Positions 3,244 through 6,002 of a stretch of DNA of 7,019 bases are shown here, piece after piece. Source of the DNA: Actinomycetota bacterium. Lineage in GTDB: Bacteria; Actinomycetota; Thermoleophilia; UBA2241. Location of the stretch: positions 1-7,019 of the forward strand of contig PMKK01000108.1 of NCBI GenBank assembly GCA_003157715.1, read 5' to 3'. The stretch's first letter is position 1. Each line of letters starts with the position of its first letter. The position numbers were made by a program, and so were the translations under genes. The notes beneath the pieces were generated by a model. That model did no database searches. It was given only the letters and a program-made list of their open reading frames with translations, and was not told where the DNA came from.

Positions 3244-5070
3244 GTGGACTCACGCAAGCCCACAGACGCGCCGGCGGCGCGCGACGATGCTGCCGCGACG
3301 GCGCCGGCGGCGCGCGAGGATGGTGTCGCAACGGCTCCGGCGGCGCGCGAAGGTGATGTCGCGGCGCCGCCGGCGCCGTGCGAGCGCGAGCGCGAGACCG
3401 GCGCCGCCGCGATCGCCCCGTCGGGCTCGAGGCCCGTCGCGGTCGCTCTCATCGACGGTGAGCACTACCCGCCGGTCGTGGTCGACGCGCTGCGTGCGCT
3501 GTCCGGCCGCTACGCGTTCGTCGCGGCGCTCTTTCTGGGCGGCGAAGAGAAGCTGCGTGACCGGCAGGCCGTAGAGCTCGACGAGCTCTACGGCCTGCCG
3601 GTCACGCCGGTGGCCGTAGCCGCCGCGGTTACCGGCGGCGGCCACGGCGCGAGCGCCGCGGCCGGAGGTCCGAACGCTGACGCCGCGGCGAGCGAAGGCC
3701 TTCAAAGCGGCGCCGGGGCGAGCGTTGCCCGCGCCACTGCCGCCATGCGCGAGGCGCTGGGCAGCCTGCTGGCGCGCACCGGAGCGCGGGTTGTCGTTGA
3801 CGTGTCCGACGAACCGGTGCTAGGGTACCGGGAGAGGTTCCAGTTGATCAGCGTGGCGCTGTCATGGGGTGCGCGTTACGTCGGAGCCGATTTCGAGTTC
3901 TCACCCCAGCCTCTTGCACGACTCTCCAGCAAGCCGTCGCTTGCGATCATAGGAACTGGCAAACGGGTCGGGAAGACCGCCGTGAGTGGCATGTTCGGAC
4001 GCCGCCTCGGGGGTCGGTTCGGGTTCGACCAGGTGGTGATCGTAGCGATGGGGCGCGGGGGTCCGGCGGCTCCACAAGTGGTCTACGGGGGCGACCGGCT
4101 CGGCGCTCATGGCCTGCTGGCGGTCTCGAGACAGGGGTTGCACGCCGCGTCCGACTATCTCGAAGACGCGGTGCTCACGGGGGTGACGACGGTGGGTTGC
4201 CGGCGCTGCGGAGGCGGCATGGCCGGCGCCTCCATGCAAGACACTGTCGGCGAGGCGCTGGTGCTCGTCGACGACATGCCGGCGACCGTCGTGGTGTGGG
4301 AGGGCAGTGGTTCCGCCAATCCGCCGGTGCAGGCGCAAGTGGTGGTCTGCGTGGCTTCGGCCGCGCAGCCGCCAGAGTACATAACGGGGTATCTGGGTAC
4401 GTATCGAATGCTCATCTCCGACGCTCTCTTTCTCACCATGTGTGAACCACCCTTCTGCGACGTCGCGCGCGTCGATGCGTTGCGTTCCGATGTAGCGTCC
4501 GTCAATCCCGAGCTCGACTTGATCCCGACCGTTCTGAGGCCACGACCGGTCGACTCCGTCGCCGGTCGCCGCGTCGCCTTCTTCACGACCGCGACGCCCG
4601 AGAGCGCCGCCGTGCTGACGCGCCACCTCGAAGAAGTGCACGGCGCCCGGGTGACCGCGGTCTCGACCGATCTGGCGCGCCGGCCGGCGCTCGCCGAAGC
4701 AGTCGCGGCCGCCGCCGGCAAGGCCGACGTGTTTCTCACCGAGATCAAGGCGGCGGCGGTCGACGTGGTCGCCGAAGCCGCCGCCGCGCGGGGCAAAGAG
4801 CTCGTCTTCTGCGACAACGAGCTCGTCGCCACCGACGGCCGCGATCTCGCGGCGGTCATCGACGGGCTCACCGACAAGGCCCTGGCGCGCTTCGCGACCG
4901 GCGAGTACGGGTCGCAACGGGCGAGCTCGGGTCACACAGCTCACGAAGCCCACACAGCCCACGAAGCCCACACAGCCCACGAAGCCCAAGCGGCCCACGA
5001 AGCGCACACAGCCCACACGGCCCACGACGCCCGCACAGACGGCGACGCAGACGAACGGAGGTGGCAGTGA
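3244..5070 (+). CDS. cpgS: Cyclic 2,3-diphosphoglycerate synthetase
   Basis: CpgS closes 2,3-diphosphoglycerate to cyclic 2,3-diphosphoglycerate using ATP; the founding enzyme is from the methanogen Methanothermus fervidus. Recognisable blocks here are IDGEHYP (70-76), YGLPV (116-120), DVSDEPV (186-192), a dethiobiotin-synthetase-like P-loop GTGKRVGKT (237-245), MGRGGP, HAASDYLEDA, GCRRCGGG with C319 and C322, EGSGSANPPV starting at E353, and TEIKAAAVDV around K502. The protein is 608 residues against about 460 in the archaeal enzyme as I recall it. The excess is an Ala/Pro-rich repeat N-terminus (1-60), a Gly/Ala-rich insertion (about 121-170) and a His-rich repeat tail (about 564-596). The GTG start lies after a G-run (3234-3239). 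No other start precedes the conserved region in frame. Codon use in 3800-4555 is noticeably less GC-biased than elsewhere. The stop overlaps the kinase start by four bases (GTGA), implying translational coupling to the preceding pathway step. Confidence 0.92.
   Translation: MDSRKPTDAPAARDDAAATAPAAREDGVATAPAAREGDVAAPPAPCERERETGAAAIAPSGSRPVAVALIDGEHYPPVVVDALRALSGRYAFVAALFLGGEEKLRDRQAVELDELYGLPVTPVAVAAAVTGGGHGASAAAGGPNADAAASEGLQSGAGASVARATAAMREALGSLLARTGARVVVDVSDEPVLGYRERFQLISVALSWGARYVGADFEFSPQPLARLSSKPSLAIIGTGKRVGKTAVSGMFGRRLGGRFGFDQVVIVAMGRGGPAAPQVVYGGDRLGAHGLLAVSRQGLHAASDYLEDAVLTGVTTVGCRRCGGGMAGASMQDTVGEALVLVDDMPATVVVWEGSGSANPPVQAQVVVCVASAAQPPEYITGYLGTYRMLISDALFLTMCEPPFCDVARVDALRSDVASVNPELDLIPTVLRPRPVDSVAGRRVAFFTTATPESAAVLTRHLEEVHGARVTAVSTDLARRPALAEAVAAAAGKADVFLTEIKAAAVDVVAEAAAARGKELVFCDNELVATDGRDLAAVIDGLTDKALARFATGEYGSQRASSGHTAHEAHTAHEAHTAHEAQAAHEAHTAHTAHDARTDGDADERRWQ
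3268..3366 (+). repeat. 33-bp tandem repeat, three copies, in the cpgS N-terminus
   Basis: Copies lie at 3268-3300, 3301-3333 and 3334-3366 and encode the 11-residue units APAARDDAAAT, APAAREDGVAT and APAAREGDVAA; a diverged fourth Pro/Ala stretch follows. The array sits in front of the conserved CpgS core and probably gives a flexible, disordered extension. Copies differ by several substitutions, so the expansion is not brand new. Confidence 0.88.
3555..3607. repeat. 53-bp perfect palindrome (26-bp arms, 1-base centre) inside cpgS
   Basis: Every base from 3555 to 3580 pairs with its partner from 3607 down to 3582 around the single base A3581; the first mismatch is 3554/3608. It encodes CpgS residues 104-121, ending in the YGLPV block. 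Because of the symmetry, the complementary strand reads nearly the same peptide (RQAVELxELYGLPVT on both strands). In RNA it would fold as a very stable hairpin with a minimal loop. Confidence 0.97.
3610..3645. repeat. Imperfect inverted repeat next to the cpgS palindrome
   Basis: GTGGCC (3610-3615) pairs with GGCCAC (3640-3645), GCCGC (3619-3623) with GCGGC (3635-3639), and CGG (3626-3628) with CCG (3632-3634), with two small bulges and a TTA loop. It follows the 53-bp palindrome by two bases and opens the Gly/Ala-rich insertion of CpgS. Confidence 0.7.
4933..5031 (+). repeat. 18-bp tandem repeat coding a His-rich C-terminal tail
   Basis: Units begin at 4933, 4951, 4969 and 4987, with a diverged end from 5005 to 5031. 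They encode HTAHEA, HTAHEA, HTAHEA, QAAHEA and HTAHTAHDA, so ten His residues mostly at every third position. The two copies at 4951 and 4969 are identical at DNA level, which points to recent expansion. The tail is beyond the conserved end of CpgS. Confidence 0.93.
5056..5063 (+). promoter_or_regulatory. Strong ribosome binding site of the 2-phosphoglycerate kinase gene
   Basis: CGGAGGTG matches the anti-Shine-Dalgarno sequence. Its GGAGG core (5057-5061) is five bases from GTG 5067 but overlaps the other in-frame GTG at 5061, so 5067 is the better start. The site is inside the last codons of cpgS. Confidence 0.75.
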
Positions 5071-6002
5071 ACGACAACGAGGTCGAGATGGTAGTCGTCA
5101 CCCGCGACCCCTCGCTGCCGTACTCCAAGGGCCTCATGGCGCAGGCCCTCATGGCCACCGGCCTGCCGCCTGAGCGCGCCTACGAGATCGCCTCGGCGGT
5201 CGGCGAGCGGCTGCACGACAGCAGCCAGGGCACGATCACCCTTCAGGGGCTCCAAGAGATCGCCAGCGCGGCGCTCGGCGAGGCCGAGGGCAAGGACACC
5301 ATCGTGCGCTTTCGCAAGTGGCAAGACTTGACCAGGCTGGCACAGCCGCTCGTCATCCTGGTGGGCGGCACGACCGGCGTGGGCAAGAGCACGCTGGCCA
5401 CCCAGATCGCTCACCGGCTGGGCATCACCCGGGTGGTCTCCACCGACACCGTGCGCCAGGTCATGCGCGCCTTCTTCGCCCCCGACCTCATGCCCGAGAT
5501 CCAGTATTCGTCGTTCGAAGCCGGCGCCGGCGTGCGTATTCCGCTGCCCGACTGGAGCGATATCGACGAGGCGGGCTTCATCGAGCAGGCCCGCAGCATC
5601 GCGGTGGGCGTCAATGCGGTCGTCGACCGGGCCATCACCGAAGGGCAGCGCACCATCATCGAGGGCGTGCACATCGTGCCCGGCTTTCTCGACCGCAGCC
5701 GCTGGGGTGACGCCGTGGTCGTCGAGGTCATGGTCGCCATCCACGAAGCCGAGCGCCACCGCAGCCACTTCTACGTGCGCGAGTGGGAGACCGACGGCAT
5801 CCGTCCGCTGCGGCGTTACCTGCAGGGCTTCGCCAAGATCCGCAAGGTCCAGGACTATCTGCTCACCCAGGCCGAAAAACAGGGCGTGACGGTCCTCGAG
5901 AACACCAACATCGACCAGGCCGTGAAAGAGCTCATGGCAGACGTGCTCGACGCCGTGTCCGAGTACTCAGGGCCGGCGGCCAGACGCAGCACAGGAGGAT
6001 GA
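5067..6002 (+). CDS. pgk2: 2-phosphoglycerate kinase with N-terminal ATP-cone
   Basis: This 311-residue protein matches the archaeal-type 2-phosphoglycerate kinase in length (about 300) and layout. It phosphorylates 2-phosphoglycerate with ATP to 2,3-diphosphoglycerate, the substrate of CpgS. Residues about 5-90 form an ATP-cone-like domain (RDPSLPYSKGLMAQAL, GLPPERAYEIASAV), usually a nucleotide-sensing module. The kinase domain begins with the Walker A loop GTTGVGKS (101-108), followed by the family-typical STDTVRQVMR and IEGVHIVPG blocks. The enzyme appears cytoplasmic. The start GTG 5067 overlaps the cpgS stop as GTGA and has a strong ribosome site, so the two enzymes are probably made in coordinated amounts. 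No catalytic motif is visibly missing. The last few residues (GPAARRSTGG) look like an unstructured end. Function as a kinase of this family is well supported; activity in this organism is inferred. Confidence 0.93.
   Translation: MNDNEVEMVVVTRDPSLPYSKGLMAQALMATGLPPERAYEIASAVGERLHDSSQGTITLQGLQEIASAALGEAEGKDTIVRFRKWQDLTRLAQPLVILVGGTTGVGKSTLATQIAHRLGITRVVSTDTVRQVMRAFFAPDLMPEIQYSSFEAGAGVRIPLPDWSDIDEAGFIEQARSIAVGVNAVVDRAITEGQRTIIEGVHIVPGFLDRSRWGDAVVVEVMVAIHEAERHRSHFYVREWETDGIRPLRRYLQGFAKIRKVQDYLLTQAEKQGVTVLENTNIDQAVKELMADVLDAVSEYSGPAARRSTGG

Follow-up and report, generated by a model that had tools for sequence, protein, structure and literature searches.

A 53-base perfect palindrome in an actinomycetotal cpgS gene looks like one of many long coding palindromes whose halves seem copied from each other

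Within coding genes, perfect palindromes are regarded as rare and costly. In the window analyzed here, a stretch of 7,019 nucleotides from an Actinomycetota bacterium, an open reading frame (ORF) for a relative of cyclic 2,3-diphosphoglycerate synthetase (cpgS) carries a palindrome of 53 bases with fully complementary arms. This raises the question of how such a sequence might have arisen, and why it persists, inside a protein-coding gene. The palindrome appears to belong to a larger set of long perfect palindromes in the coding genes of two related uncultured bacteria, and the halves of these palindromes seem to be copied from each other, not retained because they serve a particular gene.

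The palindrome and its host gene

The following features of the window are relevant to this question.

3244..5070, + strand: ORF of 608 aa, cyclic 2,3-diphosphoglycerate synthetase relative, cpgS (PDB 8ork, E 2.7e-90)
3538..3624, no strand: looser inverted repeat enclosing the perfect core, with 43-nt arms that are 84% complementary
3555..3580, + strand: left arm, 26 nt, encoding (L)RDRQAVEL(D); varies between relatives
3581..3581, + strand: centre base A, the middle base of D113 (GAC)
3582..3607, + strand: right arm, 26 nt, encoding (D)ELYGLPVT; conserved in close relatives
3606..3636, + strand: second predicted hairpin (RNA fold), 12 pairs and a 7-nt loop; the sequence of the related locus L001 differs here
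5061..6002, + strand: downstream ORF, 2-phosphoglycerate kinase-like (NCBIfam PRK04220.1, 284 bits, under its cut-off of 343)

The perfect palindrome reported inside cpgS by the first-pass annotation was confirmed, with 26 of 26 pairs around A3581. The runner-up perfect inverted repeat of the window has arms of 10 (positions 1210-1229; spacer 0-11), and in 60 order-2 Markov sequences of the window's length the longest arm ranged from 7 to 13. The annotation's judgement that the palindrome is far longer than chance would give was thus borne out, and a chance origin of the 26-nt arms is excluded. The RNA of positions 3535-3640 is predicted to fold at -83.3 kcal/mol (z -9.9), and 0 of 200 shuffled sequences were equally stable. 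A second inverted repeat had been placed two bases beyond the palindrome; a hairpin is indeed predicted in this region, but it starts at 3606 and overlaps the palindrome's end.

The cpgS product has thousands of relatives in a protein search. Within its ORF, the palindrome begins with the third base of codon 104 and finishes with the first base of codon 122, and the arms pair codon opposite codon (position 1 with 3, 2 with 2), so that RDRQAVEL is the antisense of ELYGLPVT. PDB 8ork and several close relatives align without gaps across the site; thus, the palindrome is not an insertion. In 24 proteins selected by a pattern that already demands DE[LV][YF]GLPV, ELYGLPVT is exact in 17 and the left arms come in 19 different versions, with RDRQAVEL present in five (P0001, P0004, P0005, P0016, and the window). 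The earlier statement that the palindrome encodes a conserved part of the enzyme therefore holds for the right arm but not for the variable left arm; conserved residues in both arms, as looked for in palindromes of the nematomorph type, were found in cpgS in the right arm only. If the best codons are assumed, 17 to 24 of 24 pairs are possible for the left arms, an upper bound estimated from proteins only; random arms with matching composition average 16.0. Relatives may therefore carry a quasi-palindrome.

Two further repeats are present in the same ORF. Three 33-nt direct repeats at 3268-3384 lie in its N-terminal extension, and the extensions of relatives are shorter. Tandem 9-nt units at 4928-5048, near the 3' end of cpgS, give rise to an AHxAHx-like tail, which is absent or of other form in close relatives.

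Scanning genome contigs for cpgS relatives yielded 49 loci. Arms identical to those of the window are present in L001, from the Actinomycetota metagenome-assembled genome (MAG) bog_752, with two N at the centre and a right arm that matches the window's by sight. The MAG palsa_645 (G002) has the same sequence until its contig ends within the right arm. In the other loci compared, the longest arm in the matching 110-nt segment was 3 to 11. The check suggested at annotation, whether relatives keep the symmetry, thus showed that L001 (apart from the two N) and G002 (as far as its contig goes) keep the sequence and that distant relatives are without it. In the main aligned blocks, identity between window and L001 is 81 to 87%. 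Comparison of the 40 codons upstream of the palindrome gave 21 identical, 10 synonymous, and 9 residue-changing ones; all 9 left-arm codons compared are identical, and L001 differs from the window again after the palindrome. Hence, the arm sequence is unchanged in two related MAGs while the surrounding gene diverged. Among 15 genomes of the family, only G001, the second genome surveyed below, and G002 contain an arm without mismatch, and 6 contain a match with at most three mismatches. Since the cpgS arms are identical in three lineages, cpgS offers no compensatory change of its own. In a separate part of the gene, the 80 nt at 3892-3971, just before and into the P-loop, are also identical in L001; this run is the longest identity in the 5.6-kb alignment of window and L001 (85% overall), and its codons look unlike the rest of cpgS.

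Coding palindromes and coupled arms in two related genomes

Perfect palindromes whose arms reached 16 or more were counted in sampled contigs of G001 and G002, with genes called by a simple codon-usage script and no published gene finder. G001 contained 46 in 493 kb sampled (31 coding, 14 intergenic, and 1 partial), and the first 20 contigs of G002, which were not picked by match to G001, contained 14 in 119 kb (9 coding, 5 intergenic). The genes of both genomes together held 38 in 456 kb, and three repeats of synonymous-codon shuffling produced 0; a second run gave 30 vs 0.33 for G001 and 20 vs 0 for G002. Coding density amounted to 7.84 per 100 kb in G001 and to 4.73 in G002, the latter value including contigs picked for matching palindrome-rich G001 contigs. 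Elsewhere in the family it was 2.33 (5 in 215 kb), and in 47 wider Actinomycetota loci, one of which belongs to the family, it was 0.54 (2 in 373 kb; GC 0.634 vs 0.69). No palindrome of this size was detected in 50 kb of E. coli or in 50 kb of a Rhodococcus plasmid.

The host genes are diverse and include genes for a P-type ATPase, glycyl-tRNA synthetase, TetR, a recombinase, and AlkZ, among others. Pfam domains were found in all 10 palindrome genes tested, of 37, the tested ones being chosen among those with longer arms. Arm-to-arm comparison among coding palindromes revealed identical stretches of at most 14 nt, the palindromes are scattered from 0.02 to 0.97 of gene length, and their loops vary. 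At an arm length of 18 nt, 25 repeats were perfect and 9 had a single mismatch, where shuffles gave 0 and 0.5, respectively. Imperfect 18-nt repeats with 2 to 5 mismatches were over the shuffles, too (39 vs 20.25 at three mismatches, 130 vs 92.75 at four, and 553 vs 465 at five). Codon-to-codon register was seen in 30 of 43 palindromes vs 111 of 190 shuffle repeats. With so many chance repeats in the same register, codon usage probably explains much of this bias, and protein-level selection on codon register was dropped as an explanation.

Coupled change of the arms was assessed in 11 ungapped orthologous palindromes of G001 and G002. These remained from 13 forward alignments after two with arm gaps had been dropped; the 8 reverse alignments comprised 6 repeats of forward sites and 2 gapped ones. 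Of 211 pairs, 16 were changed on both sides vs 4.68 expected, 13 of these 16 double changes were complementary, and 0 of 20000 permutations reached 16. All or all but one of the pairs are kept in five of the 11 palindromes (L101, L103:16982, L148, L151:13551, and L154:8428), each with complementary differences. Between L154:8428 and L278, there are five complementary double changes, four of them adjacent (RGDAQAGALLRAGLRIAE to RGDARSGALLRAAARVAE), which alter amino acids in both arms. Such adjacent double changes are expected if a block changed in one arm and was then copied to the other. Two of the orthologous palindromes are only partly paired in G002, with six changes in one arm and two in the other (L106/L211) or four and two (L110/L212). 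Three of the 11 (L103:17274, L151:1834, and L154:12711), likewise only partly paired in G002, show no two-sided change, implying that gain or loss of some palindromes proceeds without coupling. Arms that change together in complementary fashion, as looked for under template switching, were thus found in other genes of the lineage, and the cpgS arms are unchanged. A tyrosine recombinase gene has an orthologous coding palindrome in both MAGs (L101:2947-2991 and L133:1257-1297), with a complementary A/T to G/C change between them.

Template switching and competing explanations

Among the three explanations put forward at annotation, templated correction of a quasi-palindrome is the best supported, by the genome-wide evidence and not by cpgS alone. 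We consider it likely that template switching during replication produced the palindrome and that this process operates genome-wide in the lineage. A stalled nascent strand would fold back on a partly self-complementary stretch and copy the other arm, whereby one arm would be rewritten as the exact reverse complement. In cpgS, the protein-held right arm (ELYGLPVT) would act as the template, and the variable left arm would be overwritten with the antisense RDRQAVEL. Because the arms are paired codon by codon, each third position in the right arm would be linked to a first position in the left arm, and this pairing, repeated correction, and protein constraint together would hold both arms in place. 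Copying that equalizes the arms explains their perfect match, the paired changes in unrelated genes, the amino acid changes, and the unshared arm sequences. For cpgS itself, we infer an origin by template switching from its likeness to the other palindromes and from the pattern seen at the protein level; the choice of template arm and the enzymology are proposals.

A bolder version is possible, though we regard it as rather doubtful. In this lineage, a hitherto unrecognized type of fold-back copying might keep taking a segment of a gene and writing its reverse complement back into that gene, perhaps at 200 sites per genome or more and with a preference for a G-rich (GGCGG) 5' arm, maintaining palindromes through speciation and changing the protein as a side effect. 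Proteins would then evolve partly by antisense of themselves.

Selection of the hairpin in cpgS, either because the mRNA structure makes ribosomes or polymerase pause ahead of the P-loop domain and tunes cpgS/pgk2 expression or because a protein binds the palindrome, appears unlikely. It would account for identical arms in the window, L001, and G002 where 19 of 40 upstream codons differ between window and L001, and it fits the very stable predicted fold. However, similar palindromes occur in unrelated genes with no shared arm stretch longer than 14 nt, and relatives of the same gene are without the palindrome or have left arms unable to pair fully. A search of the window against Rfam identified no RNA family, and a tRNA search found none. 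The annotation's idea of a terminator inside the operon found no support, as no terminator-like site was called at 3555-3607 and no T-run follows the palindrome. Nothing here requires regulation by a cpgS hairpin.

Quite improbable, too, is a genome-wide functional element, i.e., sites for a DNA- or RNA-binding protein that are marked by GGCGG in the 5' arm. A polarity of this kind does exist: in 37 coding palindromes, the 5' arm contained more G than C in 28 and more C than G in 3, with GGCGG in 23 and CCGCC in 1, and CGCCGC or its complement occurred in 22 of 38 arms vs 3.5 expected. Part of it may be general, since short chance palindromes (G>C in 117 and C>G in 93 of 276) and palindromes of the wider loci with arms of at least 12 (16 and 6 of 27) also lean G-rich. 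The cpgS arm lacks GGCGG, the scattered gene positions and varied loops argue against a common element, and a polymerase stall site or a folding strand could give the same polarity. Our guess is that GGCGG polarity marks where synthesis stalls or folds.

An assembly or library artefact, such as a fold-back chimera, is very improbable, even though several records break at the palindrome. There are the two N at the L001 centre and the G002 contig end inside the right arm; among the proteins, P0129 terminates within the left arm, P0013 begins within the right arm, P0014 begins just after its YGL, and P0125, P0126, and P0136 leave the frame after RDR. In the latter three, it is as if the palindrome had been skipped, by deletion or by an assembly fault. 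Against an artefact, the same residues appear in records from different sources (P0001, P0004, P0005, and P0016), the reading frame runs on through the palindrome, and orthologous palindromes of the two MAGs differ complementarily. G002 contig ends mapped into G001 near palindromes in 2 of 21 cases vs a background of 3.9%, not counting one further end inside an orthologous palindrome (G002 C100), which is no clear enrichment; assembly breaks were therefore discarded as a genome-wide signature, the cases being too few for such a claim.

In-frame insertion of a mobile palindromic element of the Rickettsia palindromic element, REP, or MITE type would place a palindrome within a gene, but it is hardly credible: for cpgS, the absence of any insertion (no length gain vs homologues) refutes it, no copy-like second site with at most three mismatches was found in G001 or G002 except one 3-mismatch half-arm in G002, and viral contigs (21-nt exact pattern), phages, and plasmids gave no match.

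Loss of nucleases was considered as a cause of the lineage effect. ExoVII restrains such mutations in E. coli, and ExoI reportedly does so as well, judging by the title of a paper. The large subunit of ExoVII, XseA (TIGR00237), was over the cut-off in 0 of 15 family genomes and in 76 of 149 class genomes; with its absence common to the sampled family and much of the class, ExoVII loss is a lead only. RecJ was over the cut-off in 12 of the 15 family genomes. SbcD reportedly cuts palindromes in E. coli (PMC7999016, judging by a reference title); loss of SbcCD was rejected as the cause, SbcD being over the cut-off in both G001 and G002. Given the presence of SbcD and the widespread lack of ExoVII, the cause of the lineage effect was not found.

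Comparison with known systems

Rickettsia palindromic elements and REP elements are palindromes in repeated families, sometimes located inside genes. The palindromes described here differ from these in that each arm sequence is its own and nothing is inserted in cpgS. Our literature search turned up no report of comparable palindromes in bacterial chromosomal genes. Perfect inverted repeats were surveyed in 118,019 complete genomes (PMC13155455); coupled arm evolution was not seen in the accessible portion of that survey, and MAGs like these may lie outside it.

Quasipalindrome template-switch mutation is described for E. coli and yeast, with homogenization of arms and multinucleotide changes templated by the other arm (PMC6357072, PMC8604942, PMC7202029, PMC3820800), and the arm-copying process has been demonstrated for yeast genes (PMC8604942). 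In these accounts, the mutations are rare events in reporters or strains; in the present genomes, by contrast, many genes carry long perfect palindromes, and these survive from one species to another. Template switching is also reported to create and maintain RNA hairpins, so that multibase compensatory changes stem from one copying event (PMC8794818). That work concerns RNA genes; here, the sequence is protein-coding, and amino acids are changed in both arms.

If a free-living bacterial lineage has 5 to 8 such palindromes in every 100 kb of genes and their arms evolve together, it would represent a natural genome-scale record of template switching. This would provide a route for proteins to acquire several residues at once and would caution against taking paired complementary substitutions as proof of selection for structure.

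A close likeness in kind is to the mitochondria of Nematomorpha, in which many coding genes contain long perfect inverted repeats, few of them with one mismatch, that were gained and lost between species, template switching being among the mechanisms discussed (PMC6649704). Long perfect repeats within many coding genes, fewer repeats with one mismatch than perfect ones, and gain as well as loss are found here, too, along with an excess of imperfect repeats over shuffles. In contrast to that system, the present palindromes reside on a bacterial chromosome and have arms of at most 26 nt, compared with hairworm repeats of up to 284 bp; their register bias lies close to the value for shuffled genes, and a direct count was made of complementary double changes in orthologues. 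The question posed by the hairworm paper, why repeats of this type build up in a particular lineage, becomes testable in bacteria.
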